From NCBI GenBank assembly GCA_943736015.1, contig OX031063.1:35060172-35124171 (forward strand): a stretch of 64,000 nucleotides of DNA. Reading direction: 5' to 3'. Below are positions 19,958-52,000 of this stretch, in pieces (the stretch's first letter is position 1; each line of letters opens with the position of its first letter). Made by a program: the position numbers and the translations under genes. This stretch comes from Tridacna crocea. Lineage: Eukaryota; Mollusca; Bivalvia; Cardiida; Cardiidae. The notes under the pieces are model-generated. The model had not been told where the DNA came from. It did no database searches and saw nothing but the letters and a program-made list of their open reading frames with translations.

Positions 19958-20009
19958 ATGTCAGTTTGGTTATTTTTGTTGCTATTCGGGAGCAGTATTT
20001 CTTTCTCAG
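19958..20009 (+). CDS. Gene A exon 1: start codon and signal peptide
   Basis: The ATG at 19958 opens MSVWLFLLLFGSSISFS, a textbook signal peptide, ending in phase 1 before GTTTGC. Joined to 20803 it reads ...SFSA-C-Q-C-T-W-P. The donor is weak, but exon 5 of this gene also uses GTTTGT. No better hydrophobic start was seen between 16.5 and 20.8 kb. Confidence 0.75.
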
Positions 20010-21327
20010 GTTTGCTTTTGATGTTAATATTTTTTTTCAACGTTATTAGAGTCCATTGTGGTGGCTTCAAACAGATTTTCTTCAGACTGCAGTGTCTCAG
20101 ACTGCGGAAACAGTGTTAGTCAGACCTAACAGATCTTCTTAAAACTGTACGGAAAGTGAAGCAAAGTCTTTAATCAAGATAGTATAGCATTCACTATTCT
20201 ATTTTTCTTCAGATGGAAAACTATCCGTATATGAGCTGTGAAAAGGGGCATTCGGACATCTGCGTAAAGTGTCGTCCTGCTCAGCTTGATCCGGAATGAC
20301 ACTTTACGAAAAATGTCCGAATGTCCCTTTTTCGCGTGTTGTAGGCCATATTAATATATACCCAATTGTCTAAACTTATTTTTTAGCCTTGCCTTACTGT
20401 ATAAAAACGACAAAACACCAAAGTTCAGACTTGTCGACTAGAAGGTAGTTGCAGACGTTATATTAAATGTGGCCCGTATCTGTCTTTAAAAAAAATAAAA
20501 AACTAAAACCTTTTTACCCTTATTATTACTTCTCTAAACAATAATTATCTGTAGAAAAACAGATAGACGGCAAAAAATTGCCAGCAAATAGGCAGGCCCT
20601 TACAATAAACATGTATGAATGTTTAACCAATTACACATTTCTGTATATTCACTTATTATCATTGCCAAAAAGCAGGTCAAAAGCAAGCACACTCAGATAC
20701 CTCCCAAAAAACCAACATAATTTAGGTTCATCATTTGCGACATCATTTGGTGAATGGTAGAGATACTGAACAAAACGTCTGACAAAAGATTCTGTTTTGC
20801 AGCTTGCCAGTGTACGTGGCCCTCCGACTTTCAGAGTAGTACATGGCGGGACAGCGACAAAGGCGATATGATATTTGGGACCTCTACCATGACTGGATGG
20901 GAATTTAATGTTCAAGTCCAAGCTGAGGCCAGTCTGCAGACACTCAATAGATGGGAATGTGTCACACATAATGAGACATATCTGGTCATGAAGTTAGTTA
21001 GCCAGGCTCTTCTGAAAGCGGGCTTAATACATCTGCAAAAAGTACAGACCAATGTCAGCCCGACCAGTCCGCGCAGGCTGACATCGGTCGAAACATTTTG
21101 CCACTGCTCAACCATCTGCATGGAAAAGGAACATTTTTACATCCAAATCAAGCTGATCGTTTAACAAAATGGAATATATGAATCCATAATTATCTGATGA
21201 CTTGCTTGATGTGATGCATGACGGCAATGTCATAAGCCCGCTTTTACCATGGTTCAAATAATGGTGTCAGTCTGTCTCTGTCAAGTTTTTTTTTCCGATA
21301 TATCATCCCAAAAGGGAGTGATGAATG

Positions 21328-21375
<48 letters not shown>

Positions 21376-24300
21376 CATTAGTTCATTAGTTTCTACCCAA
21401 ATGAACTCTAAATTAATCCAGCCCGAGTTATACTGTTTTTTCTTTAAAAACTAAACCGTCAAGATTCTATTATTGAAGAAGTCCTTTTTGTATTGCCGGA
21501 AAGATACATAGTATTCTGTTACCATCCACTTCACTGACAAGTTTCTTATCTTCTTTTTTCACAGAACGACAGAGACATTTATCCAGTTTGTAACCAACGT
21601 GTATACAGGCTATCGTTGTTTAAGCCTCACAAAACTAACGGAGTATTCCTACAGATACTACGAAATTACTCGTAAGTATGAAAATACTAGGTTTACCTTT
21701 CTCTAAGTACGATTGTCAGAGATTGATAAGTTGCTACTTATTTACTGAAATTGATATTATCAAAAATTTTATTATATCAATTCTATCATGAATATCTAAC
21801 CCAAAAGAATTTCAGTTGTCTATATCTCGTAAATATGAATATAAATCTCATGACTTTCATTATGTCGCACAGGTTACGTAAAGCATCTAATTTCTTAATC
21901 CAACCAGTTTTTCTGTAATACATTTGATCTCTTAACAGAAAAGTTTTCAATGAACATTGACACATTTTTTTATTCTTTCTCTGCCTCAAATTATCGAGCA
22001 AAAAGTCACAGATGTGTATTCTCTTATATTTTGTCTTAGCTTGCAATCAAAGTCATACTACCACTTGTTTGAATCCATAATTTGTGAATTTTAAAATCTA
22101 GCGTCAATCTAGATTGCACAGGGTGCAACATGAGATCAGTATTTTAGAGATATTCCCAAGTAAAGGGTCGTGATGCATCTCCGTAATGCGTTATACCAGT
22201 CTTGGCATTTTAAAACTCTGAACCCACAAAATTCATTTTGCTGACTTGAGTTAATTGAACAGGACCTTCTAACAGCATATCATACAATTTTCAGACTTGT
22301 ATTGCATCAAAACTTAAGAGACCCCTTTCATCAACTTTTGACTTCACTCTGGTTAATTTCTTTATTAGCTCTTCACACCAATCTGGGTGGTGTTAGATTG
22401 TTCATCAGTGAGAATAGAAATTTGGACAGTATATCAGATGTGTGTTTTGGACAGTTTCAAGCCAGTGGTTCGGAGTTTAAGGTCATGATAAAAGCTGGTA
22501 AAGTTTATTTTTTTAAACTCAGCCATAACACGTAACTTGTCATTCTCTAGCTCTGACACCCTTTGTAAAGAGTTATTGTGCTACTGATCTTGATCATCTC
22601 TCTCTTGACCCATTTGTTTTTTAAGCCCAAACGGACCTACACGAATCTGAACACTCTGACTTCCAAGCAAACGTTTTCGGTAAAAGTAATTTTCATATAT
22701 TTACTGAAACCTTCTGTTATAACAGAATTTTATTTATCATCATTTTAAGCTACTAGACCTGTATCATTTGCAACCAATTGCTATGCATTGTACTGCTTTT
22801 AAATTTTCAGGTTTTGAGTCCGCAGCAAAAGTCTTCTGTCCATACAGTTTCCTTGCCAATCACACATTCAGCTATGCCGACTCCAGCACAGCCAACACTT
22901 GTGATCCGGTCACAGACACTGGTACTTTTGAACTCTGTTCGAACAACACAGAGCTAGGATTTAAAGCACCATCATGTGTGACCACGTCGTTCTATTCTGG
23001 TTTGTCCTTTTGTTTGTTATTTACTTCATACAGCTCGGGTAAAGTTTGTTGATACGGTTGCTTTATGAATTACGCTTTTTCATTAGTATATCAGCAGCGC
23101 AGAATATCTCGTCGTCATTAAATCAATCGACCTTCCGTCTTGTTCGAAAAATAAACTGTCACATGTATACAAGCCATGCTTTAGAAAGAAAGGCGTCTAA
23201 TGCTTTTCCGCGATGCATGATACCGAGAAAGTCACCATATAATCACGAGTCCATAAAATCCATGCTATATAATAACTGAACTACGAGGCATACTTGTCCT
23301 TTGTTATGGAAAAAATTGAGCTGCACAGGCTTACTTGGGTTGATACCTTCTGCATTTTCCCCCATTTTCCCATAGCATAGCATTGTGCATATTGTACTCA
23401 TATTAGTAGTACTACAATTAATGGGATTTTGACGTTAAGCATGTTATCAAAAAGGTTTTTTGAAACGTAATTATTCTTCTTAACGTAAGCTCGTACATAA
23501 CTGTGTTTTTTCTGTTATTCAATCATTCTACAAGATACAGATATAGAGTTTATTTCATAAGCTTGTGGTTAATATGGGGACCTATTTGCCGCCAAGGGGA
23601 AAGGTATGCGAAAATAATGAGTGTCGTAAGGCACGAGTTTTTTTCGCGGACCTTTCCCTTTTTCGGCAAATATTTTCCCATATTAACCACAAGCTGATGA
23701 AATAAAGTATATATATTATATTTCCTCTGATTATTTTGTCAACTTTTAAAACTAGTGATTTCAAGTCAATTAACCGGATAACCGATATTTCTTTTTAAAA
23801 AAAGTATTTCCAGATTTTCGGCAGGAGGAAACTATTCACTGTGACGGGGAAATAATTTCCCCAAGCCTAAATTACATTTCTTTACCAATAACATTTCTAA
23901 AAATAGATACATGAAATATAATATAACACTTTTTCCCCTAAAATAACTATAAAAGTGCCATGTATGTATTTCAGACGCCGCTGCAGTATGGTGTATAGAC
24001 GTTGTTCCTGTTGATACAGATATATTCGTGTCTCTCTATAACGGTCAACAAGATGCAAGCACTTTAGATGGCACGACTTACACTTCATTTTCTTGCATTG
24101 TAAAAAAATAATCTTTGATATGCTGAATTTTAACATTTCATGGAGATCACTCATTCCTTACCACAAAGCTTCATCTCATTTTTGTCTATATAATATACTT
24201 ATTGCCTTATACAGGCTGTTTGTCATCAAAATGATGACATTGAAGAGGGGTGTGTATTACAAAAGTTCACTCCTTCCTTACTATACTACTTAACATTTGC

Positions 24301-27300
24301 TTGGGATCACCATATTAGATTCACTGTAGTTCTATATGTGGCATGTATCATGTATGGTTTTATAATATGTTACATTGCCACACTGATTAATAAAATCACC
24401 AGTGGAAATGGATCTTTAACCCTTTACCTCATAATGCCGACTGTTACAGACACAGAGAAAGAAGCCGTTGGAAAACATTGTTGGAAAAGGAGAAAATGCT
24501 GGATACCAGCATTTTCTCCTTTTCCAACATTGTTTTCTACCCTATAACAGACAGCACTTTGTATGTTGCATTTGGTTTTTAGTCATTATATGCTTTCAAC
24601 TTAGACAATTCCAGAATTTAATATTGTTGTAAACAGTTTCTGCAAAACTGCTGCAACATATGCACCCATACTGAAATATGTAAGTGATCCCTATCAAATG
24701 GTGAGTACTATACATACATGTAGCTTCGTACCGTATAAAATCAATACCTAACAACTGCGTCGGTAGGAATTTTGTTTAGTTCAGTGGTTATGGTGTTCGT
24801 CTTTTAAACCTCAAAAAACGAGGATCTTGTCCACATGGGTTCGAATCTCATCAGCTGCAGTTCGTATATCAGCTATGCATTTATTGCAAACTTTTATGTT
24901 CGTAAGATTGGCATAGACTTGTTGGCTATAACACTTACAAATCCACCAAGATACTTGTATGATACAAAACAAAAAGATACAATTCCAAATTTGATTAGGG
25001 CCTGTGGGCATTATTTTGTAATTGAATACATATGTTAAGTCATATACTGATAATTAATCTAGGCGAAAGTTTCATTTCATTCAGTGCGTCAATCACTTTT
25101 GTGACAAATATTGAGTCTTGCTTCTGTTTTACATCGCAAGGGTATAAATGGAGACAAATCTGCTCTCTCCGTTACTCCAAACAGTTGTAAATCGGATCAG
25201 ACCACTGCCGCAGTACCTGTTGATGTTCTTGGAAATAGTGATGGAGCTGTTTTGACAATCATTAATACAGATAGTAAGTTATTTGTTCATTTCTTCTTTA
25301 TCGTACACTTATTTGTAAAAGAACTTTAAATCTTTCAATGGTTATAGTGGTGCTTAACAGAAAAGGAAGGTAAAACATTTTTATCAGCTTACGTTCACAA
25401 GTACAACATATGTTTAAGGTAGTGGACCCGTAATACAAATGCAGCATGACATAAATTTTCTTGAAAGTTGATAAAGACAGATTTATACAGATAATACTTT
25501 TCACATTATTAACCGACCAGAAATTCCTTTGATGTCTATCTTCAAATTATTTGTTGATACTTTTGTTAGTTTTCAGGAAAGGGAGGTAATTATCATACTT
25601 CTTTTTAATGAGAATATGGTAGTTTTAGATTTATAAATGATAATTCCAGGAAGGACAAAAAAGGAAAAAGTGACTCTGTGAAAGTAATATAATAATGCTC
25701 ATTTCAAATCTTAGCAAATTTTGTAGGATAATAATATAGTGGAAATAGCTGTTTTCTATTACGGGTCCACTACGTTAATGATAAGAAAACAGAAACATGC
25801 GAGGATTTTTTGTTAATTATGTATACCATGGAACATAAATCCGCAATATGTGAGCATATGAATGCCTTGATTTGAACTGTAAAACCTTTCTGTTTCAGCT
25901 GCCTGTCGTGAGTTACACCTTCTCTTTTCACATGCAATTGACCATGGATGAATCATTCACTTAGTCTTCAAATATACATACATGTATACTTTTGATTTAA
26001 CTTACATATAAACCCACTATTTTCTACCAATATCTAGAGTATCTTGGTTTACATTCCGTATTATACATTGCCATTTGCTGACTACTCGACCTTTTCCATG
26101 TTTTCAAGCATTTTACGGCTGATAAATATCAAAGCTATTTTGTGTAATATTTCTTTAAGGCATGGTGTTATATCCAAAAGACACCAAGCGATCATTTCAT
26201 GGACTGATTTACGTCAGACGGGATTTGAGTACTAGTGGAACAAGTGTTCTTGTTAGATTCTACAAAAACAGTTCAGGAAATAAATGCGGATATTACAAAC
26301 AAAGTTTTTGGAAGAATTGATGACGACATATACACTGATCAAAAGAATTAAAGGATCACACAAATACTGAAATTGAAAGCTTTTATCTTGTTAAACAGTC
26401 GGTCTTTGTGCTCGGAAAACCATCAGCTTACATTCTTGATAGATAAAATGGCTCAAAAGTTTTCTTGTTTGAAACACTAAAAATGCTGATAAGAAATGTT
26501 AAGTATAAAACCAAGAAATTTGTTTTCCTTGTTCTTTTGTTAAAAAGCTCATATTTTTTTTTATATTTTGTTCAGATTCATATCAAAATCGACTGAATTA
26601 AGAGAACGAGAAGAAAACATAATACCCCCGATTCCTTAAAAAACCTGTGTAGCTTACAAAAAAAAAACGGCTTTGATAGGAATAGCCCATACGTCTTTTG
26701 TGCAACCAAATCTTTTTGCTTGTTCTGAGATTTTAGGAACGAATGAACGTATTAGCAAAAAGTTATTTGCATTGTCCTGTACTGAAAAAAATTCTTGCGA
26801 TCGAAGTCGAGGACATGCGATCCTTTATTTTTTTGAACAGTGTAGTAAATAAATCGACTTTGCCACGCCCAGTCATCTCGTTGTGCAACTACGCATATCA
26901 AATATTTTGAGACGAGCCCTTTATTTAATTTGACCGAATTACATAAACATCTGTGTCTACATTCTGGTAAATCTTAATAATATCATACTCTTTTTTAAAA
27001 GCGCCTTGTCCTATTTTGCCTGACCCATTTAGAGGAAACGTCACCATAGCAACATCTGGCGCTATTACTACGGCTACTTATGCATGTGAATCTACTTACA
27101 CTCTCTCTGGAGACAGTACACGAGTATGCCAGGGTAACGGAACCTGGTCTGGATCGACACCATCATGTAGTAAGTGTCAACTGTTGACCTTTGTAAGGAT
27201 ACAATTGTAAGATCAAAAGAAGGATAAAATGGTTACCTCAGTTATGTGACTGGTACTCTTCAGAGATTCTTTATCTAAGGGCTTGTAAGGGTACGACATT

Positions 27301-30300
27301 CCTTTTTCCCTCGCCATTAAAATTAAATGTTCAGTAAAAAAGCATTGCAACAAATTGAGGATGCATGCTTTCAACTGCAGACTCACAGGTGGGCGTTTCA
27401 AAAACGACTTTGTAATTCCAAGTAACCTGTGTCTACAGTGTTAAAGCTAGGTGGACTGTATAAATCAAAGATGAAACTTCATTTTGTGCTTTCTGATCTT
27501 GATCTATTCTGGCATCAAAGCAACTATAGTTGTGAAAGCCTTTTTAAGGGTTAAGCTTGTTTCCCAGTGTTGCTGCAGTATGAATGGAAACGACCATCGT
27601 AACGTTCAGAAAAATAATGGTACTGAAAAATATACAGGCTAAGATAATGTGCTTTTCTTTGACGGCCTTGAGGTTGTCATGAAAATGTAAATAATACCAC
27701 TGATCGAAGTAAGAAATGAACACAATGCATCTTCGGTAAAAATTTAAGTTTTTATATCGATATATTTAAATTAGGAAATTGATAAAGAAGTCTAGCTAAA
27801 GCGCTTGTCAAGCCTATTTCTTGGCTGAGTGGCTTAGCCAGGGATTTATAAACAAATAATCTTGGTTCAGTTTCCTGCAGCGTTAGTCTCCCGTGAATGA
27901 CCTTTGAAAACCACAGGCCCAGCCCCGAAGTTGAAAACTGGTGACATATAACATATTTTGTCTGCAATCATGCAAACGTGGTTTGATATTTGATTTCAGC
28001 ATGCCCGATTTTATTTAACCCGATAAATGGTACTGTCAACCCAAGCCAAGACGGTCTAACAGCAACATACAGCTGTGACGTGGGCACTGTACTAGTGGGA
28101 ACAGTAATATTGAATTGCAACGTTGTCACTAATACTTGGGATTCATCTCCCCCTACATGCGGTAAGAAAACCCAAACACATGGTTCAACTAATGAAGTCC
28201 ACTTACAATCCGCAACTGCCGTAGATAAATGAAAAATATGGTGGGCGTAAGGTCTTTAAAATAGTTTCAGCTGGTCTCTTTCAGCGACAAATATACAACT
28301 CACTCTTTTCGGTGGTTGACAATACAATTCTGTAGAATTTAATATTTTTTTATATTAGAGCAGAATATGTCAAAGATCGGACTACTTGTTCGTTCATTAC
28401 AGTCCGATATTGATTTATGCCGTCCGCAGAGGTCTCTGGTGTCGAACATGCATGATAATAATATGAAATGTGAGACCATTTCGATGAACTATATTTGAAT
28501 AGAGTAACGTGCTAAACAAATCTTTTCGTAATATTCAATGAAAAGCCGAATGTGACCCTTATCTTTCTTTCATCATTTTTCCATTTACCGAGGACACAAC
28601 TGAACTGGTAAAGAACGAAGTCTGTATCATCTTGGCAATAAAGATACACCGACAACTCCAGTTGTTAAAGCTGTGCTAGTGTATATTTTATATGCCCTCA
28701 GAAACACAATACTTTTCCCAGATGAAGGTCTATAGTTTTGCCCAGCTTGAATAAAGAACAACATCACCTCAGTTTGAGATTTGATAACAAAACATTAGCT
28801 ATTAATAAACATTAATGGGCGCCCTGACAAGGGGCGGTCCTTGCCGGCAAATTGTGAATGTTGATTATGGAAAAAGGGCGATATTTTTGCCCTTTGTGTG
28901 CGTGTGGGGGGGGGTCTTTTTTATAATTAAAGATTATACCCTGATTATATACTTTGACAAAAAACATTCAGACAACTGTCAGACGCTGATCACACCGGAA
29001 AACGGAAGTTTGAGTCTAACAAGTGACGGTTTTACCACCTTTGTCGCCTATACATGTGACGCAGGAACAACGCTAAATGGACAACCGACAGCCACATGTC
29101 AAGCCGATGGTGTTTGGAACAGTACAGGGCCAGTCTGCAGTGAGTAGAGTTTTTTAGAAAGATCAATTTCTTAAAATTTTGGTTTGCTTATAGGATCATT
29201 ACATTTTTAAATGTTAAAGTCAAGCCCATTGTATTCCATGACTTGTGAAGGCTATCATGCATACAGATACAAAGCAAAAATGTAAAAAGAAAATATAACT
29301 CCTACATTTTTTTTCAGGTTGTAGCAATTGTTGAAAAACCGGATGAAATCCAATTCTTATTCTTGATTATCGTATTTTGACCGAAGGCCTTTCGGATAAG
29401 AACACTATTAGACTGTGAGGATCTCGATTTAATTCCAATAGTAGTTGAACTCCTTTCAATTAAAATTGCATCGATGCCTGTCTTATCATAATGTCTGTCA
29501 TAAAGATAGCGGGCAAAACGTGTTGTTTTTTTTCTTTCGCAAAAACGGTCTGTTCTAGGTCTGAAAATGATAATTCAATTTACAGCTTTCTGTGCAATTC
29601 TCACCAACCCAAGCAGCGGAAATGTAACAATTTCGAGTAATGGTTCCTATTCAGTAGCAACTTATGTCTGTGTAGATGGATACTCACTACAAGGATTCAA
29701 CATTTCACTCTGTGACACCACTGGAACATGGGACACACCATCCCCAACATGTTGTAAGATCATAACATTTTACAGAGAGTTATTTTTCGGTCGTTGACAG
29801 TAATTTTTCTAAGGGGGAGGGGGGAGGGGGCAATGCTTTACAAAATCGAAGACTAAACAATTTACCAAATTATAGTCTATTTGCTGCAATCTTATTAATT
29901 TCTTCGAAAAGAACAACTGATGGCGACGATTGATGGTTACCGATATGACCGTGTTCAAATAGACTGCAAAGTTCCGATTAATTAAATTTTGCAATATTAC
30001 AGTGAGAATAAGAAGCATATGAAATCTACTTCGCCGAAAGGGACAGGAGACTTTCTGTTACAAATGGTTTACGATCCTTTAGATTATGGTATTATCAGAT
30101 CCCTTTATCTTAAATTGTTCGTGTATTTTACTTTCGTCGGAGATAAGATTCCATACAATTATTTGAATATGATTGTATGTGTTTGAGTAGCTTCATGTAA
30201 TATCCTACTGATCTTAAAATCTGGACCAAGGTTCATCAAACAGCAGGTAGAAATAGTAATACTCTCTGCAACTCTCAGGTTATACACAAACCTTTCTTTC

Positions 30301-33300
30301 TTCGGGATTTGAATCGCATGAAAATATATCAATGTTCATCTAATTTACAGACTGTGATTCTCCCTTAGAACCATTAAATGGAACTCTTGTGATATCAAAC
30401 GATTATGCTACCGCAACTTATACATGTGATATTGGTACAAGTTTAAATGGATCATCTGTTAGAACTTGTCAGACAGATGGATCGGGTTGGTCTTTATCGG
30501 ACCCCGTCTGTGGTAAGTGGTACTTGATTTTCTCCTATCATACAGATTGTTCGTAGGATATTGTAGAACAAGATTCATAGCACAGATCATGCTGTCAGAA
30601 CATAGATCTTCAATTTCCAGAGCTTGGATTGCAATTCTGACCAAAACAGCATTGAATCCGAAACGCACTGGTACTCTCAATTGCCTGAAATTACATGAAC
30701 CATGCTCTGTGAAACGGGATTTTGATTCGTTTGCTAAAAAGAATTCACGCTGGTCAGCCTGTAAAGTCGGCCCAGGCTGACATGGGTCAAATTGTGTTGC
30801 TGTACGTGAAATGATTATTCCGTTTCGTGATAAAGGCACTTGTTACACCAAATGGCTGAGATGACCTGCTTCGTATAATTTACAGAAATGCAGTACACCC
30901 TCCACCTCCTTTTTGCCAGAACGCTAGTCGTATAATAGTTTACAATGCAGTTTACAAAAAAAGGCCTTAAAAGTGTAAACAAATTTTCAGTTATGCACCC
31001 AGCCCATGATGTTTTATTTTGTTTATATTACGTTTTAAATGCCAGTATGATTTCGAACTTACCACATACTTCGGTATCTATCGATAGCAATTAAGCTTTT
31101 AATAGCTGCAAGATTAAATACCATCCTAGACTGGCAGCCTTTTCCTAAAGTTGATAAACGTCTTGTCGGCATAAATCAATCATTGTGTTCTTGTTCGAAA
31201 ACCTCAAAATAGAGGGCAAAAGAAGATTAAGTTTCAAATTTAACCTCTGGTAGGGTGACTCAATATTCGTCGTCGATAAAGAACATCTCCAAAGATAGAC
31301 AAGATGGATAAGTTCTACTTCTAAATCTTTTTATTTTTTTTATTATTATTATCATTATTACTTATAGAGACAATAAAAATGCAAAACTTCAGACAAAAAG
31401 CGTCAAGTTTCAGACATCCTCCCACTTGCTCATGGTTGGTCGCATGTTGATTACGTTACTTCTTGGTATTTGATTGTTGTCATCTTTCATTGGTTATATC
31501 AATTTGTGATAATGATATTTGTTTCAGTCGCCTGCCCTCAAATACCAGTTTCAGATAATGGTACAGTTTCTTTGACGTCAAATGGTACAGTTACCTTGGC
31601 GTCATTTAGCTGTGACGTTGGAACGTCTTTGACAGGGAATTCTGTGGTCTATTGTTCAAATGATGGAACTTGGTCATCTAGCAGTCCTAATTGTAGTAAG
31701 TTTATTCTGATAATGTTAAACTTTTATTCACTGGAGACGTTTTCTTTTTCATTTTCTTCTTTAGATATTTTAACCATTATCTTGCTAAATCAATTAAATG
31801 AAAGTTTCATGTCGAATTTGCACGAAAACAATATCTCCTTATGGGACAATTTAGATCCGAGATCATTCTGCACGTTCTGTGACCTTGATCTATACTTTAG
31901 TCCGCATAAGGCCCGGGAGTCAGGCTTTGAAGCCTAAGAGTTAAAATGTATCATTTCTTATGGTCTTGAATGAATTCAATGAATGAATGAATAAGTGATT
32001 CATTCTGAAATACAATGTTCCAGTACAATGTCAGATGATCGAGGAGCCATCTTCTGGAAACTTCACATTTACTACAAATGGTATGACCACAACAGCCAGT
32101 GTTACATGTGACATAGGAACAACGCTATCTGGTGATATCACATTATCTTGCCTTGAGAACGGGACATGGTCGACTTCTAGTACAAACGTAACTTGTGGTA
32201 AGGCCATTAAACCTCATTGATCTGGTAGTCGTTGGCTCAGAATTTGTATGAAATCAAAGAACTATCGTGAGAAGTTAAGACATGTGCTTTGATCAGTGAG
32301 TGTTGCTCTGTTGAAAAGCGGTTTAAATGCATCTCTAGATCTATTGTGCCAAGTAGACCTACGTCATCACTTACTTCTTACCCATGAAACCAATTTTATC
32401 TTACAACCAACTGCATTATTGGGTGGGCGTGTAGGAAATTTACTTGTAGCAAATGCTTCGATCCAGGTCAGCCGACACGGACTGCAAAAACTGAGACAGT
32501 TCGAAACTTTTTGCGAATGCTGTCAACTCACTTTTTCATGGAGATTGACTTGTATACGGAAGAATATTAGGCCAGTTCGATATGCGTTATGCGTGTTATG
32601 GGAAGCATACTTACCTCCCTGTAATTAATACTAATGAGATAGTCAGGGCAACGTGTTGTAGGTATATAAATTAAGGTTGGAGTGTTTTTATTGAAATGAC
32701 GAATTCCCAAGTCTTTTTAATCGCACTAGGTGCCTAAGTTGTATGAAGCCGCTTTCATTGTTTTTAAACATGTATCCCTTTTGCGTGTTGCTCATTTAAC
32801 AATAAATTTCAGCCCCCATAATGAACCACTGTCATGTTAATCAACTTACTAATGAACTTAATAACTGATTTATTCAAGACATGAGGAGAATTTTTAAGTT
32901 TTCATGAAGGTAAGAATAAATATGCACTTAAAAATACTAAGCTCTATTTTCTTTTATTATTTTCATTAAAACCAATATTGCGTTTTCCTTTAATGTCCAT
33001 TTCATATATTATTTCATAGTAGATCTATTGTTAGAAGTTCAATACGCTAGAGATAAGTTGAAAAAAAAGATTGTTAGAACCCAGCAAAGTGACAATAAGT
33101 TTTAAGCTCTTTATCTTTAAATTTGCTGTTGGATACTTTTCTCAGTTTTCAGAAAAAATTGTATCTATCAACTTAAATTTTAGACTGGAAATAGACTAAA
33201 ATCGGACAAAAAAAAAAAACACTATGAACTTTCGTATGCCAGTACCGCATTATCTATGATACCGCGGAAACCGGAAAAAAAAACCTAATTTGCATACAAA

Positions 33301-36300
33301 GCGCCACCTAAACACTATCACGAAAGAAGGGGTGTTTTTGAATGGAATCGGTTAAAAATTATGGATGTATCTTAATAAATTATAAGTAACTTTCAATATT
33401 CACATATTGCAATAATAAAGCTCAGTTACCCTCCACGTTGTGAAAATGTTTTCCTCCCTTATCGATATAAAAACGCTAATTATGTTTGACATGTGAAGGT
33501 CGTCTGCTTTGGCGTCATAATCCTTGCCGGAAACAAAAACTACGGCATTAAAATCGTTTTTTTTTTTTTTTTTAATGAGTTATGTTTTTGACGATTTTCC
33601 AAGTTACAGGAGTTGATGGGATTCAATAGTAGACTCCCATCAGAGCATCAGCATCAGTAGTTAACATGGTAGCTTGACCTAGATATCTTTGTCTGAAAAA
33701 TACGACTCGAGCTTTGATAGCAACATTTATTATTTCTTTACATGCAACAGTTTATTACAGTGTTGGAAAATAATACGCCTGAGTTCTCTCTCTTGTTTTA
33801 AATTTTCGGCGAAATTAAGTACGCGGTGCCATAGAGGATCATCCTATGCATGTTTGTCTAAATAAGTTTGTTTGCAAAAGTACTTCCGGCACTGCTAATT
33901 TTTTTCATGAAGTTATGATTTTTTCAGCCAATTAGAGATCGCCAATATCCATGAAACTATAATTGAATTATTTTGTAGCAGAAATGAACCTTTTAAATCA
34001 TCTATTGTCTATCAACTTTGCTGTACTTGCATAGGATTCTGGCTATTAAAGGGCGATGTGTTAAGAAAAGCTTAAAATAGGTTAATTAAAGTGTGTCATG
34101 AGAACGGTAGAATTAGAGCAGTAAATATTTCCAAGTTAATTAATTAATTATCCTCTTCAAAACATTCACAATAGAGGTCCCTATCAGTGCATCGGGAAGA
34201 CAAGACCTGAACTTAAGAAGACGTAATGTAAAGATACATACTTGTTATCATCCAGTTTATATTAACCCATTCTATCCTTCTTTTATTACTCTATAATCAT
34301 TTCCGTATCTTCATGCCAAATGTTGTAAAGGTTGCAAAGACTACTTCTACGTTTTTCTCTGTGAGAATCTATTTTCTTTTCCCCGTTAATCTATAAGAAA
34401 ATCTTGTATTTTTCTTTCAGTATCATGTCCCACATTGACTTCCATATCTGCTGGATTAAGTACTCTATCTTCAAACGGTTCATCAACAACAGCCCAGTTT
34501 CAGTGTGCCCAGGGTTATGGTATCGTAGGTGACTCTACATCCACGTGTCAGCCGAACGGAACCTGGTCGAGTGCAACACCTACTTGTGGTAAAAAATGAG
34601 CCATGCTTTTATGAAAAGCGGACTTTATTTATCTGTAAAATGTAGTGACCGAGGTCAGCCTGCACACGCAGCCTGACCTGTGTTGATTAAACATGTTCCT
34701 CGTAAACAAGTAGGTTGTTAGACAAACATGATTCTGTGGATCCATAGATACATGATGACTTGCTTTGGGAGATGCATTACAGTACATGGCTAATTTTTTT
34801 GACTAATTCTTTTTTCTTCATCAGAATGATTAACAACTTACTTACATTTAAATATGAAATTCGTGATAACACCATGACCCCCTCCCTTAGCTCCTCTAAC
34901 AAAGCACATAATAGTAATAAAAAACAAATGAAACATGTATTATGGAAGTTTTTATGTCATCAGAGATATTCTTACGCAAAATGCACTGCCTTTTTTTTTC
35001 AATTTAGGAAATGAAAGTTTTCTTTATTATTTCTACCTCATTTGTTCACAGTATCTACACTCACATCAGAATCAACATCTGAAGCCAACAGTTTACTACC
35101 AGCTCTTATCGTATTGGCTGTTTTGACTACTGGTTTCGCCGTTGCTTTTGGCATTTTCCTATATCTCTACTGCAAATCTAAGAGAGAGAATGACTCAAAG
35201 TCCGTCGGTAAGTTAGTTTCATGTACATGTAGCTCATATATTCGATGTATCTAGAACGTTTCTTTTTCGAAGATTTGCGCCATATTAAAAATATATCTTT
35301 ATTCGTTTTCATCCAGTTTCTAAGTAATTGTATCTTTATTTTGTGAAACTATAGTCACGTGTTTGTCTTCGTGCCAAATGTTGCATGTGACTGTTGCAAG
35401 GTACACAGATGACAACGGTTAGAAAATGCATTTCTTTCTCTGCGGGCTATCCGTTTAGTCAATGGATGACATCACAACCACAGTTTCTGATTTGAACCGA
35501 AGACAAATCTCTTGCGTTTCTTTTTATTACATACAGCTTACTCAAATTATGCCCAACACTATGATGTAATAAACAGCGATCGGAAACAGATAAAGACTTC
35601 TAGAGGGATTCCATCATCGCATCCTCCTATTGACCATCAGAAACATGTTTTGACATCAGATCGCTTGACCGGATCACGTGCTCCAACTAGTTTTGGATTT
35701 AAAGACTCCTTTAGGTATATTCATTCATTCATACATCCAATTAGCCAGCCAGCCAACCACCCCTCCAACTATCAACCAACAAATCAGCAAATTCCTTTAT
35801 TATTTCATACTAGGCGAACCTGTGAGTGTAACTGATCATTATGGAGCGCTCTTATTCACATCAAATGATCACTTTTATTACACTTTTACAAGCGATTTCC
35901 TTCACATTGAGATATAACTTAACATTCTGAAGGAACCTTGCACGGTCATGTAAATGTAGATTTCTCTTTCGCTTGCCTTATACCTTTGCAACTTGATTTT
36001 TCCTTTTTTTATGGCTTTGAGGCTATTGCAAAAAAGTATGATATCAGCTGCTAAACAGCTCAAAATGTAATGTCATTTATACGATGTTGAATGATTATTT
36101 TCGCCCATTTAACTCGTATAGTATTCCTTTTTTAAACTTCCCTGTATTTCAGTGGCTCAGGCTCGATAACTTCACGATCTGCAATATCTTCTTTGACACT
36201 CCCTCTTCACTTAGTTAGAGAAGCAACCACTAGTTCTATCAATGAACAGCCACCAGCGCCATGGAAACACACTGACACCGTAGTTTCAACTCCAAGAAAA

Positions 36301-36870
36301 TCTCCCGATTCTTTTTCCAACCCAAGAACGCCTAGGAAGCCGAAAAGCTCGCCAAGAAAACCACAGAACATCAACACAGCGACAACTTCACAATCGCTTG
36401 AAGAGTCCTCCGACGGAAAAGCAGAGCCAAATAAAACTATGCAACCGCATGATAATAATAACAACAAAACTGACAGCAAAAGAAGGAAAAAGAAGAAAAG
36501 TATTTTAGTCAAAGCAAATTCCCTTAAGGATAAAATGAAAGACAAAAATATAGAGAACGAAGATACTGATGTTCCTTCAATCGATATCAACGATGAGCTT
36601 AACTCATCTAGACGTCTCTATGAATCGGTATATGAGCTGTTACAGAAGCAAGAGGACACGTTATACAGTGTTCTACAAAAAGATTCACTCGGGAGAGACA
36701 GAGAAGGAAACGCTAAAGACACGGAGATAACTGAACGACACAGACGAACGAAAAAGCATAGCTCATCCTCAAACTCCAGAGCATCAACGCCTGTTAAACA
36801 CTCATTACAGGTCAATGATCCACAGAGTTGTATAACACCTCGATCAAATACTATTTCAACAGTTCAGTAA
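19958..36870 (+). CDS. Gene A: complete ITAM-bearing sushi receptor (19 exons, 1107 aa)
   Basis: Nineteen exons: 19958-20009, 20803-20992, 21565-21671, 22369-22497, 22811-22999, 23975-24099, 25141-25273, 25899-25907, 27002-27169, 28000-28161, 28972-29139, 29586-29753, 30351-30512, 31528-31695, 32024-32197, 34421-34588, 35052-35207, 35537-35714, 36153-36870. They add to 3324 nt, an intact frame of 1107 codons plus stop. Residues 1-18 are a signal peptide, ~18-311 the family N-terminal region, ~312-757 eight sushi domains, ~773-798 a transmembrane helix followed by CKSKRE, and ~800-1107 the cytoplasmic tail. The tail has an ITAM-spaced tyrosine pair (Y1029, Y1040) and S/T-P-R-K repeats. By sushi-protein analogy the ectodomain probably binds a ligand or microbe surface, and the tail could recruit an SH2 kinase; both are inference. 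Start and splice sites are my own reading. Confidence 0.85.
20239..20335. repeat. Palindromic element (AAAGTGTCGTCC type)
   Basis: GAAAAGGGGCATTCGGACAT and GTAAAGTGTCG on the left are mirrored by TGACACTTTAC and ATGTCCGAATGTCCCTTTTTC on the right. It lies in intron 1 of gene A. A relic is near 58585-58640. Confidence 0.75.
20803..20992 (+). CDS. Gene A exon 2: N-terminal W/KG motif module
   Basis: 190 nt after CTGTTTTGCAG. It encodes C-Q-C-T-W-P-S-D-F-Q-S-S-T-W-R-D-S-D-K-G, then S-T-M-T-G-W-E-F-N-V and R-W-E-C, and ends in phase 2 before GTTAGT. It is the direct counterpart of 47421-47604 and of the minus-strand exon 12183-12375. Confidence 0.85.
21031..21102. repeat. Palindrome family 2 copy
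   Basis: CAATGTCAGCCCGACCAGTC pairs with GCGCAGGCTGACATCGG; intron 2 of gene A, 40 bp past the exon 2 donor. Confidence 0.7.
21329..21372. repeat. (CT)22 microsatellite
   Basis: Pure CT run of about 44 bp in intron 2 of gene A, pyrimidine-rich on the transcribed strand and about 190 bp before the exon 3 acceptor. Confidence 0.95.
21565..21671 (+). CDS. Gene A exon 3: SYRYY motif module
   Basis: 107 nt between TTTTTTCACAG and GTAAGT. It reads Y-T-G-Y-R-C-L-S-L-T-K-L-T-E-Y-S-Y-R-Y-Y-E-I-T. One cysteine; the aromatic block is conserved in all three paralogues. Confidence 0.85.
22369..22497 (+). CDS. Gene A exon 4: N-terminal region
   Basis: 129 nt, equal in length to exon C4. It encodes V-R-L-F-I-S-E-N-R-N-L-D, then D-V-C-F-G-Q-F, and ends G-S-E-F-K-V-M-I-K-A. 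Acceptor TTTATTAG, donor GTAAAG, phase 1-1. Confidence 0.8.
22811..22999 (+). CDS. Gene A exon 5: N-terminal region, Cys-rich
   Basis: 189 nt with four cysteines: V-F-C-P-Y-S-F-L, N-T-C-D-P-V, F-E-L-C-S-N-N and P-S-C-V-T-T. It begins E-S-A-A-K-V like B5 (E-A-S-S-A-K-V). Acceptor ATTTTCAG; donor GTTTGT is non-consensus. Confidence 0.8.
23505..23925 (-). repeat. Palindrome family 4, copy 2
   Basis: Inverted relative to 9265-9690. The centre 23559-23700 is a palindrome starting ATAAGCTTGTGGTTAATATG. It lies in the intron just before exon 6 of gene A. Confidence 0.8.
23975..24099 (+). CDS. Gene A exon 6: VWC...YNG module
   Basis: 125 nt. It encodes A-A-A-V-W-C-I-D-V-V, then V-S-L-Y-N-G-Q-Q-D-A and F-S-C-I, ending in phase 0 before GTAAAA, as in B6. 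The intron before it holds a 400-bp palindromic repeat (23505-23925). Confidence 0.8.
24418..24605. mobile_element. Palindrome family 3 MITE copy
   Basis: It begins AACCCTTTACCTCATAAT. The centre 24472-24540 is a near-perfect hairpin of GAAAACATTGTTGGAAAAGG type. Intron 6 of gene A. Confidence 0.78.
24776..24850 (+). repeat. tRNA-derived SINE head
   Basis: A-box-like TTAGTTCAGTGGTTATGG at 24777 and B-box-like GGGTTCGAATCTC near 24838 have the spacing of a tRNA promoter, but no acceptor-stem pairing or clean cloverleaf is apparent. It lies in the intron between exons 6 and 7 of gene A. Confidence 0.5.
25141..25273 (+). CDS. Gene A exon 7
   Basis: 133 nt. It reads G-I-N-G-D-K-S-A-L-S-V-T-P-N-S-C-K-S-D-Q, ending in phase 1 before GTAAGT. 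The acceptor ATCGCAAG has a poor pyrimidine tract, but length, phase and homology with 53481-53613 fix the border. Confidence 0.8.
25414..25778. mobile_element. TTAA-flanked MITE, copy 2
   Basis: TTAA at 25414-25417 and 25775-25778 enclose inverted ends GTAGTGGACCCGTAAT and ATTACGGGTCCACTAC. The interior matches 1946-2328. A TTAA target is typical of piggyBac and Kolobok type elements. It lies 120 bp before the microexon of gene A. Confidence 0.85.
25899..25907 (+). CDS. Gene A exon 8: 9-nt microexon (T-A-C)
   Basis: CTGCCTGTC between TTTCTGTTTCAG and GTGAGT. It adds T-A-C in frame between exon 7 and the first sushi exon. Leaving it out keeps the frame (9 nt), so it could be optional, but its presence in all three copies argues for use. 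Confidence 0.75.
27002..27169 (+). CDS. Gene A exon 9: sushi domain 1
   Basis: 168 nt, phase 1-1. It contains P-C-P-I-L-P-D-P, G-N-V-T-I, T-Y-A-C, R-V-C-Q-G-N-G-T-W-S-G-S-T-P-S-C. Complete CCP module with four Cys and the Trp before the last Cys. Confidence 0.9.
28000..28161 (+). CDS. Gene A exon 10: sushi domain 2
   Basis: 162 nt after TGATTTCAG. It contains T-C-P-I-L-F-N-P-I-N-G, T-Y-S-C-D-V-G-T, L-N-C-N and T-W-D-S-S-P-P-T-C. Complete CCP module. Confidence 0.9.
28364..28426. repeat. Palindrome family 1 copy
   Basis: AAGATCGGACT pairs with AGTCCGATATTGATTTATG; intron between sushi 2 and 3 of gene A. Decayed. Confidence 0.6.
28972..29139 (+). CDS. Gene A exon 11: sushi domain 3
   Basis: 168 nt. 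It contains D-N-C-Q-T-L-I-T-P-E-N-G, A-Y-T-C-D-A-G-T, A-T-C-Q-A-D-G-V-W and G-P-V-C. The acceptor ACATTCAG has few pyrimidines upstream. Confidence 0.88.
29586..29753 (+). CDS. Gene A exon 12: sushi domain 4
   Basis: 168 nt after TTTACAG. It contains F-C-A-I-L-T-N-P-S-S-G-N-V, T-Y-V-C-V-D-G-Y, S-L-C-D-T-T-G-T-W and S-P-T-C. Complete CCP module. Confidence 0.9.
30351..30512 (+). CDS. Gene A exon 13: sushi domain 5
   Basis: 162 nt after AATTTACAG. It contains Y-C-D-S-P-L-E-P-L-N-G, T-Y-T-C-D-I-G-T, R-T-C-Q-T-D-G-S-G-W and D-P-V-C. Complete CCP module of the G-S-G-W subtype also seen in B (60180-60335, 63577-63738). Confidence 0.9.
30690..30905. repeat. Composite repeat containing palindrome family 2
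   Basis: CCATGCTCTGTGAAACGGGA opens it, the hairpin 30731-30800 follows, and it closes with the GCAGTACACCCTCCACCTCC type end. The same order recurs near 12750-13010, 21000-21250, 34600-34790 and 46860-47100. Confidence 0.55.
31528..31695 (+). CDS. Gene A exon 14: sushi domain 6
   Basis: 168 nt after TTTGTTTCAG. It contains A-C-P-Q-I-P-V-S-D-N-G, S-F-S-C-D-V-G-T, V-Y-C-S-N-D-G-T-W and S-P-N-C. Complete CCP module. Confidence 0.9.
31845..31905. repeat. Palindrome family 1 copy, decayed
   Basis: TTTAGATCCGAGATCATTCTG pairs only partly with TGACCTTGATCTATACTTTAG. Between sushi 6 and 7 of gene A. (Arms quoted in part.). Confidence 0.5.
32024..32197 (+). CDS. Gene A exon 15: sushi domain 7
   Basis: 174 nt after TGTTCCAG. 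It contains Q-C-Q-M-I-E-E-P-S-S-G-N, S-V-T-C-D-I-G-T, L-S-C-L-E-N-G-T-W and N-V-T-C. Complete CCP module, with an N-V-T glycosylation sequon near its end. Confidence 0.88.
32198..34420. other. Longest intron of gene A sushi run, 2.2 kb
   Basis: It holds a decayed composite repeat near 32290-32620 and a poly-T run at about 33560. AT-rich; I see no exon or relic sushi module in it. Confidence 0.5.
34421..34588 (+). CDS. Gene A exon 16: sushi domain 8, membrane-proximal
   Basis: 168 nt after TTTCTTTCAG. It contains S-C-P-T-L-T-S-I-S-A-G, Q-F-Q-C-A-Q-G-Y, S-T-C-Q-P-N-G-T-W and T-P-T-C. It follows a 2.2-kb intron, the longest in this gene's sushi run. Confidence 0.9.
34634..34688. repeat. Palindrome family 2 copy
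   Basis: ACCGAGGTCAGCCTGC pairs with GCAGCCTGACCTGTG; just past the sushi 8 donor of gene A. Confidence 0.65.
35052..35207 (+). CDS. Gene A exon 17: juxtamembrane stalk and transmembrane helix
   Basis: 156 nt after TGTTCACAG. A short Ser/Thr/Glu stalk is followed by LLPALIVLAVLTTGFAVAFG and then IFLYLYC, a single hydrophobic helix (~residues 773-798), and a basic stop-transfer stretch CKSKRE. This makes the protein type I, with the sushi domains outside the cell. Phase 1-1. Confidence 0.88.
35537..35714 (+). CDS. Gene A exon 18: cytoplasmic tail, first part
   Basis: 178 nt, phase 1 in and 2 out. It starts A-Y-S-N-Y-A-Q-H-Y-D-V-I, with a YxxI motif, and continues polar and basic. Acceptor ACATACAG, donor GTATAT. 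The frame continues exactly into the last exon. Confidence 0.75.
36153..36870 (+). CDS. Gene A exon 19: cytoplasmic tail with ITAM-like motif, stop codon
   Basis: 718 nt after CCTGTATTTCAG, ending at TAA 36868-36870. The tail is polar and probably disordered. It holds S-T-P-R-K-S-P, R-T-P-R-K-P and S-S-P-R-K-P (proline-directed phosphorylation-type sites), a lysine cluster K-R-R-K-K-K-K-S, and the sequence ESVYELLQKQEDTLYSVL coded at 36622-36675. That sequence fits E-x-x-YxxL-x7-YxxL, the ITAM consensus. A further tyrosine lies three codons before (YESV). Confidence 0.85.
36631..36675 (+). other. ITAM-like motif in the tail of gene A
   Basis: Codons TAT 36631 and TAC 36664 give the two tyrosines of YELL-x7-YSVL (residues 1029 and 1040), with Glu at -3 of the first. 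In known ITAM receptors, phosphorylated tyrosines at this spacing dock tandem SH2 kinases of the Syk family. The motif is seen; the signalling role is inference. Confidence 0.65.
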
Positions 36871-46002: not shown

Positions 46003-49000
46003 GTATGTATTGCGTTTAAATTTCTTTTAACCACTTAACTCCGTAACTTTATCTTGAAGTTAGAGAATTTAAGAACAGTCAAATATATACGAATAATCAA
46101 CATTAACTGAAGTATAATACATGTACTATGCATAAAATGTTTTATATGCAGAAATTCGAGATAGCAACTCATGTTACGTACGTGTATGCTCGATCAGACT
46201 GGGGTCAGGGAATCGGTATGGCTAGGCCAGACGTGCAATACCCTGCATTTGCAAATACTTATGAACAAAATGAGTAGTGAAGTGGCCCAATGTACATGTA
46301 CTGGTATAAATTCTCATCTGGGTATCAAAACGTCAGTACTTTATAGGTGAGCAATTACGGTACTCTGACCAGGAAAAAGAGGGCTATTTATTTACGTCCT
46401 CTCAAACAATTGTGCATCATCTCCATAGCGATTATGATCAGCAATGTTAGGTTCATTGAACTTCTTCCCTGACCTTTACAATATCTAAGCAAGTCTATCT
46501 ATATAGTCGATGCCCTGTGTTTCTTACTAATCTTTTAATCCTTTTCCCAAACGATCCCTGGTTTTTACGACCCTGAAAAAGAACCCTTTTGAAAACATTG
46601 TTGGAAAAGGAGAAAATGCTGGTAACCAGCATTTTCTCCTTTTCCGACAATGTTTTTCTTCCCTTCCCAAGGGAAACAAACTTCCATTTTTCAGTCACAT
46701 TTATTTTGTCGTCTGCAAATGCTTTCAATTTGGACCAGTCTGAAATTTCGACCACGACCAAAGCAAATCGTCGGTTTGCTTCAAAAACCTCGTAACTATA
46801 GTTTGGAACAAGCTGTAGTTCCGTGGTTTTTGAAGTAAACTGACGAAATTATCGATGATTTACGGCAAATGAGGGATATGCATCTCCTGGGAGTACCACG
46901 CAAGACATCACTTGGATCCATTTTGTCTAACACTGTTTGAATTATGAATGGCCCTAGGCCATGTAAAAAATGTAAAATTGAAAAAAAAAAAGAATGTTTG
47001 ACCCATGTCAGCTTCCGCGCACAGCACAGGCTGACATCGGTAAATGTTTTTTTTTTTTGCATGTGCTTAAACAATCTTAAACAATCTCTTTTTGAAAAAG
47101 CAACGTTTCTGGGATAGCCGCCAGTGTTTCCTAGAATAGTATATATGTGTACATACGGTCTTGTGCCGATATGTGTAAATGTATGTCTTCAAAATTAAAT
47201 ATCATTGTGCGTAACTGTGTTGCTGGCTCTAAAACGGCTAGTTTCTCACAGTCTGCTTATCACAAATCTATATTGGCTAAAATTGCTTTGCAAAATATTA
47301 AATGCTTCGCAAAATATGAGTAGCATTTTCCCAATTTAGTTAATTGATATTTATCAGAGAAAACTATCCTAAATTGCAAGTATTATCTGAAAAGTATCTG
47401 GCTTTTGACAAATTTTGCAGCATCTTGCACATGGCCTGACTATTTCGTTGATACCCAATGGGAAGACAACAGCAAAGGACACGTGACCTTTACAACCAAT
47501 GAGATGACAGGATGGAGTTTTCAGGTTCAATCCGGCCCAACATTAGATACTTGGCGATGCCATTCGACAGACTGGCTGGCATCAGATGGCTTTCTCATTT
47601 TGATGTAATATATTTTTACTTAAGTATTTTCTAAATTACTTGACATATTTTTGTTCTGCTTATGCCCCGCTTGAACTAGGAACTTTTGATCGAAAAAAAA
47701 CCCAGAAATGCAAAAGTTATCTTCATTTTCTCCAATGTAAAAAGTAATTGAAGATTTTTTCAACGCAGCCACTCGTGGCTATATTATCGATTATGTTTAC
47801 AAGATAAAATAAATTTCGATCTTTCACCGGAAAAAATAAGACAATAAATGTTTTTTATATCATGCTTCTAACCCTTTTTTGAGGGAACTTACATCGAAAT
47901 CCAGTACACTTGTTTAATTTGTGACATACGCCTTCCGCATAACACGCATTACAATATACGTGAAATCCGAGAAATGTACGGTATTGTATACTCGAACAAA
48001 TTGACTTAATATTGACCTCTATGCAAATAATAATTAATTAGTGAATGTCGTATATTACACGCTTAATATTGTTGTATAATATCGTATTACACGCTTAAAT
48101 TATTGTAATATATATATTTTGTACGGTATTACACGAACAAATTGACTTAAAATTGACCTCTATGCAGTAACAATGAATTAGTGAATGTCTATATCATTGG
48201 TTATAATTGTGCGGCACAAAAAGTCTGTTAACGATAAATGTCAGGTTAGACACATACAGTGTCATAGTCAAAATATCTGTGCTTTTTACACATGATATTG
48301 ATCAAGATCAACCTGTACGGAAAGTGCATCGTAGATCTATTACCAATCTAAACCAACAAAACCGTGTTTATTTCACGTATTTCAAAAGATTTGAAAGATC
48401 TTTAAGCGGTATTAAGAGTTGAAAATCGTTTGCATAGTTCCGCATTCAGACGACATTAGCCGAAGCTACAGGTAAGTTTGGACAATAATTTAAGATATAC
48501 GGTAATAGAATTAATTTATTTCATGTCAATATGTTTGAGTTATAAATTGCATCATGGTTGAATGGCACGCCCTGTTTAGGTAACTAGTTTATGGAATCTC
48601 TTGTTCCCGCCTTCAATCGAAGGGTTACAAAATATTAAACTTTATTTCATGCTTTCGGGTAGGTTATCGAGATTTATCGGTGAAATATTTTTTTGATATT
48701 TCATGGTTACGACCGGTGAAAATATCCATTTTTGAGTCGCCTGGTTGCGGACTAACCAGGCCCTCATTGTTATCATACTGATGTATAGGGTGACGTAAGC
48801 ATACTTCCGATCTTGTACTGCTTCCTGTCCCAAATTTCGGTTTACGAGATGAAATCCTCTATAATAATCATAACGGTCTATACCGTTATTTCTCGATAAA
48901 GCATAAAATGATGATTATTGTCCTTCTCCAATGTTTTTATTTTTATTACTAGGATAGTATCTACAATAAACAATCCTGTACCCATATAGTGATTCTCTCA

Positions 49001-52000
49001 TCAAAAATAGCCTAAATGTAAATCTGTACTTTTTCTAGGCGTCACCTAGAGATATTACTCAGTCCCTACAAACATCCACCATAGTTATATTGCACTTTCA
49101 TCCTTTTCCAGAACAGCAGATGTTTTCGATCCTTTTGGTTCAGATTTCTACGGTTACTTATGTTTGAAGCTGATAAAAATCACGGACCAATCCTACAGAT
49201 ATTACCAATACAACCGTGAGTAGATGTATCGCAATTAAGACAACGTTAATGGTTTCCAACGATATTTTCTGTATCCATGGACATTAATAGTTATAGGGTC
49301 AGTGGCATGTGACTTGGATATCTGCTCACGGCTGTGGTGAATCGCCGAAGGGGGTGATACAATACACCACAGCCGTAAACAAGTTTCCAAGTACCATGCC
49401 ACCTGACCGTACAGCGAATTTATTATACTTAAAAGATTTACCATTCCCACGTTTATTAACAGATTTCTTTTTTTTTCGTAAATTGCGAACGCTGACGAAG
49501 TAGAATTTCCCTTCTGAGTGCCCCAATTCAATGAAAAGTGACGTCACTGGGAACTGACGTCACTGAAACCTTGGTAATACATGCTAAAACGTGCAGCTTG
49601 GCGCATAATCTTCATGTTAATCTTTCTCGACGCCGCCATTTTGGATGTTGTGTTGATAGTGTAGTGGTGTATACTGGGCTTTCGAAAGGGAAACAGCCTT
49701 TATGTTAGTTTTGCCAGTGTACATGATATATATGTTGGGGGCAAGATATTATTATCCAATCAGATCACGAAAAGTTTCTTGGCAGTGTAACAAATATATC
49801 TGCATCATATTAAGGAAGAATGCAATGGTATTACACATATTCCCGCCTCAAAAAATCTGGCCTTTGTAAGGCTTAATAATTAAGTAGTAAGTTAAACAAT
49901 TATTGTCCTGAAATTAATTTATGTTTGACGTCAAACGACAAATATTTTGCCTTTACAGCTGAACAAACTGCACTTTACAACGAACGTGTTTACATGTCAC
50001 CTAGTAGCACCCTTATGGAAAAGGACTCCCTCTGTCTAGAATCACTGACGGCTTTTCGACCAAGTGATTCGGAATATAAAGTATTGATACGCTCAGGTAG
50101 GTTTTTCCCTGTGTTTTACCTAGACACATCCACCCTTTGCGATCCTAAATCCAATATCCTTTGCTTGTTATTAATTCATGAATAATATTATAAGTTGAAT
50201 AATTCAATTTTGGATTCAGAGAACCTTCTATGCCTTTAATTGTCAGAATGATAAAGTGACGACTTAAGTGGCGATAGTATTTTTGCCTAAATAATCTGTC
50301 CTACGTAAAATGACCGCTTATATCATTTTCGAAGAAAATAGGCAAATCCATATCTTCAGCCAGCAAATCTGAGGGTCTGATAGGTCTCGAATAAATTAGT
50401 CATAAAATTACTCGCCTAAGAAGCAAACAATATCCATTTAAACTCGAAGTACGAGTAGCAAATCAAGTTCTTCATGATAAAGCATAAGCCTTCTCCACCT
50501 AAAATTTAGTATCCGACTGTAAACTTTAGGCTTTGAAGCGCTGCATTCAACTCACATGCATCAGCACATTCTGGGCTTCCCTCGCTCACAAAGAAACTAT
50601 GTTCAAATGTTCATGTTATACAAAAGATATGTATATGACTCACCGTATCTAAACTATGTTATCCAGGAGAGGCTTCGTCCGCTAAAGTCCAGTGTCCATA
50701 TGTCTTTCTTGGACGATACGACTATACTCACACAGATTCAACTGGCACAGTCTCCTGCGACACATCAAATGACCTTGCTGATGTGTGCAATGATAACACG
50801 CAAATAACATTCAACTACACAACATGTTCAACAAGGATAGCTTATTCAGGTGAATCTGCTTTTACAAGCCTTTAACGCTTATCTTGCTAATTAACTAAAA
50901 TGAAATTTCATTCCGAAAACCCAATTACTGCAGTTTCAAAGTCATGTTTTGGGGAATAATATCTCCTTTTCGGACAGTGTAGATCCAAGATCAGACTGCA
51001 CCTGTTGTGCAATCTGATCTTGATCCAGACTGTCCATAATAGGTTAAGTGAGTCGCGCTTAACAGCGTAAGGGTTAAGAGGCTTTATTTTTCGAGTACTT
51101 ATATTTCCTATATCTGCCATCACTTATACTTGAAGCATGTGCTGTGAAAAGGGGATTAATAGATCTTTCATAAAAAGTGTCCACCCAAGTCGATCTGCTC
51201 GGACTAGGCTGACATTGATCAGAGAATATAGTGGTTTTAGATTTATAAATGATAATTCAAAGAAGGAAATAATGGAAAAAATGAATCGGTGAAAGTAGTT
51301 CAATAATACTCACTTTCAATTATAGCTTATTTTGCAGGATGATATTTTAGTGGAAATAGCTGTGTTGCATTACACAGGTCTTACCTTAATGGATCTTTCA
51401 TATAAAGCATCGACCAAAGTCGGTCTGCTCGGACTAGGCTGACATTGACCAGGCGTTTTCGATATCTTGAAATTTTCTGCTTGGCAAAGGGCCACTGCAC
51501 GTCCTGATTCAGTCGGCTGTGAAACAAACTGGATTTTAGGGGGTCCATAATTATGTGATATCTTACTTGGTATAATGCACCACAGAGATGCACTAAGCGC
51601 CTTTTGCAAGAGTGTCGCCCTATTTTCCTTTTAACATGGATCAAAAACTATTTTACCTGTCTTCCAGGTCGGTCTTTTCAACATCTAGGTCTGTAATCAC
51701 CAACCATTCTTAAAAGTATTCCTGGTCTTATTCTTCAAGATTTCCTGACCGTGACAGTAACAAGACTTCTGATTGGCTAAACCATTTGGTTTAGCCAATC
51801 AGAAGTCCTGTTACTTTCACATTGACAAAATTCTGAAGAATAAGACAGAGAACGTTGTTAAGAATGATTGGTGAATACGGACCCAAGGCCGAACTTCTTA
51901 CTACCACAATCGATTAAAAAGTAAAACTTCGAATTTCAGATCTAATTTACCTTCACATATCCTTGGAAGTCCAAACTGCGCACCTCTGAGCTTTATCTGG

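Follow-up and report, generated by a model that had tools for sequence, protein, structure and literature searches.

The window, a stretch of 64,000 nucleotides of Tridacna crocea DNA, holds gene A together with parts of two paralogues, gene B and gene C, which it cuts at its end and at its start, respectively. The exons of gene A were assembled by hand, with the signal peptide and the transmembrane (TM) helix called by eye, and the ends of the paralogues were read from an extra 100 kb on each flank of the window. The features are listed here by position in the window.

383..12364, minus strand: gene C, paralogue, extending beyond the window start (coordinates span its exon matches inside; placed by exon homology)
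19958..20009, plus strand: gene A exon 1, starting at an ATG, with a hydrophobic putative signal peptide MSVWLFLLLFGSSISFS and a GT donor in phase 1
20803..25273, plus strand: gene A exons 2–7 (20803-20992, 21565-21671, 22369-22497, 22811-22999, 23975-24099, 25141-25273), a cysteine-bearing N-terminal region without a Pfam family (phases agree; exons homologous to these occur in B and C)
27002..34588, plus strand: gene A exons 8–15, eight sushi domains, one per phase-1 exon (Pfam PF00084)
35052..35207, plus strand: gene A exon 16, stalk and TM helix (LLPALIVLAVLTTGFAVAFGIFLYLYCKSKR) (from translation and splice sites; helix called by eye)
35537..35714, plus strand: gene A exon 17, juxtamembrane part of the tail, including the tyrosines of YSNYAQHYDVI
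36153..36870, plus strand: gene A exon 18, the final 238 amino acids of the tail and the stop
36622-36675, plus strand: ITAM-pattern segment ESVYELLQKQEDTLYSVL in the last exon of gene A, with Y1026 and Y1037
47417..63737, plus strand: gene B, paralogue, extending beyond the window end (coordinates run from its first to its last exon match inside; placed by exon homology)

The gene A model comprises 18 exons (19958-36870, plus strand) that encode 1104 amino acids and end with a stop at 36870. Exons 2–18 have AG acceptors and exons 1–17 have GT donors, the phases agree, and there is no internal stop. The predicted protein consists, in order, of the signal peptide, about 290 amino acids without a Pfam match, the eight sushi domains, one TM helix, and a 310-amino-acid tail. 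Pfam finds the sushi family PF00084 in eight stretches (E 1.7e-53), and the only other family at E ≤ 1 is a sub-threshold HRM; Rfam and tRNA scans of the window found nothing. Judged from the sequence, gene A is a sushi (CCP/SCR) receptor by its sushi repeats, signal peptide, and TM helix. The gene model and Pfam thus uphold the initial annotation, which had described a signal peptide, eight sushi domains, and one TM helix, the first and last of these called by eye in the model; the exons that it numbered 17–19 are probably exons 16–18 of the present model.

The N-terminal region of gene A received no identity from Pfam or NCBIfam. A PDB search returned three weak matches, two to antibody light chains (E 0.014 and 0.11) and one to a cellulase (E 0.18), and because antibody light chains are among them the region may adopt a distant Ig-like fold. 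Genome-wide, its first exon has 14 matches at E ≤ 1; C8 carries 13 of these, and genes A, B, and C are among the 14. One further paralogue with this exon lies at C8:29117209, and no sushi exon was found near it (within C8:29124000-29153999), an indication that the N-terminal region can be separated from the sushi repeats and is not bound to them.

The initial annotation reported an ITAM-spaced motif, E-x-x-YxxL-x7-YxxL, in the last exon, and we confirm it at 36622-36675 within the open frame 36136-36870 (plus strand). The motif has Glu at position -3, Y1026 followed by ELL, seven intervening residues, and Y1037 followed by SVL, for a tyrosine distance of 11 residues, a spacing like that of the activating switch in vertebrate immune receptors, so that the tail, which follows one TM helix, contains the strict formula [DE]xxYxx[LI]x6-8Yxx[LI]. 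In both YxxL units the residue at -1 is aliphatic and that at +3 is Leu, features frequent in Src-family substrates and in Syk SH2 ligands. Permuting the 310-amino-acid tail 200,000 times yields the strict pattern in a fraction of 0.000435, and permuting the 238-amino-acid last exon as often yields it in 0.00007; two YxxL/I units at ITAM distance arise in 0.00078 of 200,000 at last-exon composition. Moreover, the last exon has three tyrosines, all of which fall within 16 residues (P = 0.0108 if randomly placed). The motif exceeds the chance expectation for one single tail.

The paralogues provide the nearest comparison. Sushi-exon matches number 33 in gene C and, in gene B, 29 that are free of stops plus one with two stops. 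Their TM helices and tails lie beyond the window, at window-relative positions 88502-90308 in gene B (TM exon 88502-88621) and at about -34980 to -36360 in gene C, and both genes repeat the sushi, TM, long-tail order of gene A. We compared the tails of these three genes from among the 14 N-terminal-exon matches. Local comparison relates the tail of B to that of A (score 87, reached by 0 of 500 shuffles, whose mean was 45), with a match that stops before the ITAM segment; neither A and C nor B and C are significantly alike (313 and 264 of 500 shuffles, respectively, score as high). Tyrosines in the gene B tail are confined to its first 15 residues, leaving none in its last exon, and the gene C tail has ATYDK close to the membrane and DFDYIRPVYLQG toward its end, a tyrosine pair unlike that of gene A. 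With neither of the two paralogue tails carrying an ITAM, use of the motif across the cluster was rejected, and among the three clustered genes the ITAM is a feature of gene A only.

The paralogues also bear on whether the 3′ end of gene A has been modelled correctly. Gene A was built by hand from genomic sequence alone, and exon 18 might in principle belong elsewhere or be spliced out, or the gene might be a pseudogene. We consider this very improbable given 18 stop-free exons with consistent phases, the same sushi, TM, long-tail order in genes B and C, and the relatedness of the A and B tails.

When the last exon of gene A was searched against the genome, it returned itself and one chance-level match (E 8.2), and a search with the TM and juxtamembrane exons returned gene A and matches at E 3.0 and 7.9. 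The related exons of gene B escaped both searches, so that neither counts as a firm negative, and the last-exon search is no proof of uniqueness. The last exon also had a local match to a coiled-coil-like frame (window-relative -74607 to -74167; E 0.002, uncorrected for composition), a similarity that we attribute to composition. The ITAM peptide alone gave one meaningless match in a PDB search (E 0.78).

How far the motif can be read as a signalling site depends in part on how often such patterns occur. In six-frame translation of the window, counted over open segments of at least 20 amino acids, the strict formula matches twice in 80,536 residues, once in gene A and once elsewhere. Scaled roughly to a proteome of about 10 million residues, this would mean more than 100 matches by chance, an estimate and not a computed figure; because a whole proteome would yield many chance matches, the pattern alone is no proof of function. 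The YxxL pair could therefore be a chance pattern, or could serve only as YxxPhi sorting signals for internalisation by the clathrin adaptor AP-2, without Syk signalling, and we regard this as a serious possibility, if not a probable one. YELL, YSVL, and YDVI in gene A all fit the YxxPhi consensus of AP-2 sorting signals, and genes B and C do without the motif. Against it stand the exact ITAM spacing, the acidic residue at -3, and the clustering of every last-exon tyrosine at the motif, as well as the 11-residue tyrosine distance, for which YxxPhi sorting has no need.

If the motif does signal, partners should be encoded in the same genome. We found at least 42 matches to SH2 exons there, and all 42 listed matches were fetched and translated. 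Exons for a tandem-SH2 kinase of the Syk/ZAP-70 type lie in order on C4, N-SH2 before C-SH2: the exon at 28700214 best matches the N-SH2 domains of ZAP-70 (E 2e-16) and SYK (E 4.9e-15), and an exon at 28709169, located by motif 9 kb farther on, best matches the C-SH2 domains of ZAP-70/SYK (E 6.5e-11 and 7.4e-09). A tyrosine-kinase glycine-loop exon (Pfam PF07714) follows at 28716974. From their order and strand, we infer that the three exons would form one Syk/ZAP-70-type kinase gene; the kinase exon itself gives no sign of SYK identity, because EGFR and Eph receptors, and not SYK, head its PDB matches. Others of the SH2 exons we take to be Csk-, Src-, SHIP-, PLC-gamma-, and p85-like.

The same survey revealed a homologue of SHP2. 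A C-SH2 exon on C17 matches SHP2 best in the PDB search (E 3.6e-36), and an N-SH2-like exon, read by eye, lies upstream of it. An exon on C18, considered as a possible Syk relative, matched SHP2 best, with a lower score, and received no assignment. The SHP2 homologue raises the alternative that the tail acts through other SH2 proteins, in an inhibitory or scaffolding role, with SHP2 as a possible partner. SVYELL fits the ITIM pattern [S/I/V/L]xYxx[I/V/L], TLYSVL is ITSM-like, and Y808-S-N fits a Grb2 site (pYxN). Nevertheless, the 11-residue tyrosine distance is that of an ITAM, and ligands of tandem-SH2 phosphatases usually have a wider tyrosine spacing, and on balance we find such a role unlikely. 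A precedent for it is Draper-II, which, in the excerpted text of PMC4503800, carries an ITIM, recruits Corkscrew, and opposes Draper-I.

Known receptors place gene A in context. Draper/MEGF10 receptors have EMI/EGF ectodomains, and Hydractinia allorecognition candidates, unlike gene A, have immunoglobulin-like ones. Draper differs from gene A in being without sushi domains, and no EMI or EGF family was found in gene A at E ≤ 1 in Pfam; membership in the Draper/MEGF10 family was set aside because the ectodomains differ. Draper-I is like gene A in being a single-chain invertebrate receptor with its own ITAM, which, as excerpts of PMC4503800 describe, can be phosphorylated by Src42A and recruits its other partner, the Syk-type kinase Shark. 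For the Hydractinia candidates, likewise invertebrate receptors, ITAM and ITIM motifs are reported in the consulted portion of PMC12065747. The same portion describes Botryllus FcoR as type I TM proteins that combine Ig with sushi domains and whose tails can bear ITIM, hemITAM, or core motifs. As in gene A, these invertebrate receptors have a type I topology, a sushi domain, and tyrosine motifs on long tails of their own, and they belong to a clustered family in which the motif varies from member to member. Unlike gene A, they are ascidian, they combine V-type and C2-type Ig domains with one sushi domain, and they carry an ITIM, a hemITAM, or a single core motif in place of a double YxxL. Gene A has eight sushi domains and, at E ≤ 1 in Pfam, no Ig family, and membership in the fester/FcoR group was set aside because of this difference in ectodomain. 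Among molluscs, oyster CgCLec-TM1 and CgCLec-HTM are single-chain receptors that, in excerpts of a review (PMC13027682), have a hemITAM, associate with Syk, and are said to signal through it; they differ from gene A in having a C-type lectin ectodomain and only one YxxL.

With Draper, the oyster lectins, and FcoR as precedents, as far as these excerpts go, tyrosine activation motifs that belong to the receptor itself, even alongside a sushi domain, are not new in kind among invertebrates. The contrast drawn by the initial annotation with vertebrate receptors, most of which borrow an ITAM, is a fair one, but invertebrate single-chain receptors with their own ITAM or hemITAM have already been described in the consulted parts of PMC4503800, PMC13027682, and PMC12065747. 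Eight sushi domains, a canonical ITAM of two YxxL units, and an N-terminal stretch that matches no Pfam family were not met in combination among the papers listed by the literature searches, themselves a part of the whole. Gene A is thus plausibly a new architecture of a known kind of receptor, unproven as such.

We regard gene A as a plausible Syk-coupled receptor, a single-chain type I protein that would use its own ITAM for activation, and put the chances of this at about even. Under such a mechanism, a ligand would be bound by the N-terminal region and the eight sushi domains; clustering of the receptor would lead a Src-family kinase to phosphorylate Y1026 and Y1037; the doubly phosphorylated motif would dock the tandem SH2 domains of the host Syk/ZAP-70-type kinase; and the docked kinase would start an activating signal. 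The account presumes expression of gene A, phosphorylation of the motif, SH2 binding, and an activating outcome. It agrees with the single-chain activating receptor that the initial annotation had proposed, and is favoured by the predicted architecture, by a strict ITAM formula with Glu at -3 and x7 spacing that is rare in permuted tails, by the clustering of all last-exon tyrosines at the motif, by the ZAP-70/SYK-type N-SH2 and C-SH2 exons in the genome, and by the reported association of oyster hemITAM lectins with Syk (PMC13027682, in part). It is weakened by the lack of an ITAM in genes B and C, although the tail of B is related to that of A, by the C4 kinase exon being nearest to EGFR/Eph and not SYK, and by the many chance matches estimated per proteome. 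Because candidate partners are encoded by the host, the idea of Syk coupling is testable.

Use of the motif would mean that an ectodomain of the sushi (complement-control) type connects to Syk directly, with no adaptor chain, and that the differences among the clustered tails reflect the gain or loss of an ITAM within one receptor family. We suggest, tentatively and with considerable doubt, that the cluster encodes large sushi receptors with a common N-terminal region and diversified tails, in which A would carry an activating ITAM, B would be nearly tyrosine-free, and C would have another tyrosine pair and a proline-rich SH3-type site. If true, this would be an independently evolved parallel to the paired activating and non-activating immune receptors.

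Within the tail of gene A, the helical hydrophobic moment also peaks at the ITAM segment, an observation that speaks neither for nor against an ITAM.

The sushi receptor gene A and its neighbouring paralogues, genes B and C, have in common an N-terminal region that bears cysteines and is about 290 aa long. It is encoded at the following positions:

20803-25273, + strand, N-terminal region of gene A
47417-53603, + strand, N-terminal region of gene B
5425-12364, - strand, N-terminal region of gene C

Searches of Pfam and NCBIfam with this region matched no family, and a PDB search returned weak matches only, two of them to antibody light chains (E 0.014 and 0.11). Across the genome, the first exon of the region is matched 14 times, and 13 of these matches lie on a single contig (C8).

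A juxtamembrane tyrosine cluster, YSNYAQHYDVI, is present in gene A (35537-35714, + strand). It fits the pYxN and YxxI patterns, and its tyrosines may be additional docking sites in the gene A tail. The tail of gene C falls in the flanking stretch upstream of the window:

about -36360 to -35763 (relative to the window start), - strand, gene C tail

It contains PPELPPRS, which resembles an SH3 ligand, and DYIRPVYLQG, whose tyrosine pair differs from that of gene A. In gene B, a sushi-like exon at 58763-58924 (+ strand) has two in-frame stops, and its sequence closely resembles that of the intact exon at 59291-59458; it looks like a decayed duplicate exon.

Retrotransposon remains occupy 38713-42721 (+ strand), with Pfam matches to endonuclease (PF14529, PF03372) and reverse transcriptase (PF00078) families; within them, approximately 39360-39825 appears tandemly duplicated in the ORF list. 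A recurring palindromic GGAGAAAATGCTGG...CCAGCATTTTCTCC unit (about 24488-24520), with similar units seen as translated pieces in two other stretches of the genome (L024 and L064), is perhaps an abundant small mobile element. Directly downstream of gene A, at about 37430-37680, lie many AATGACCC/GGGTCATT units, and this stretch resembles an inverted repeat.
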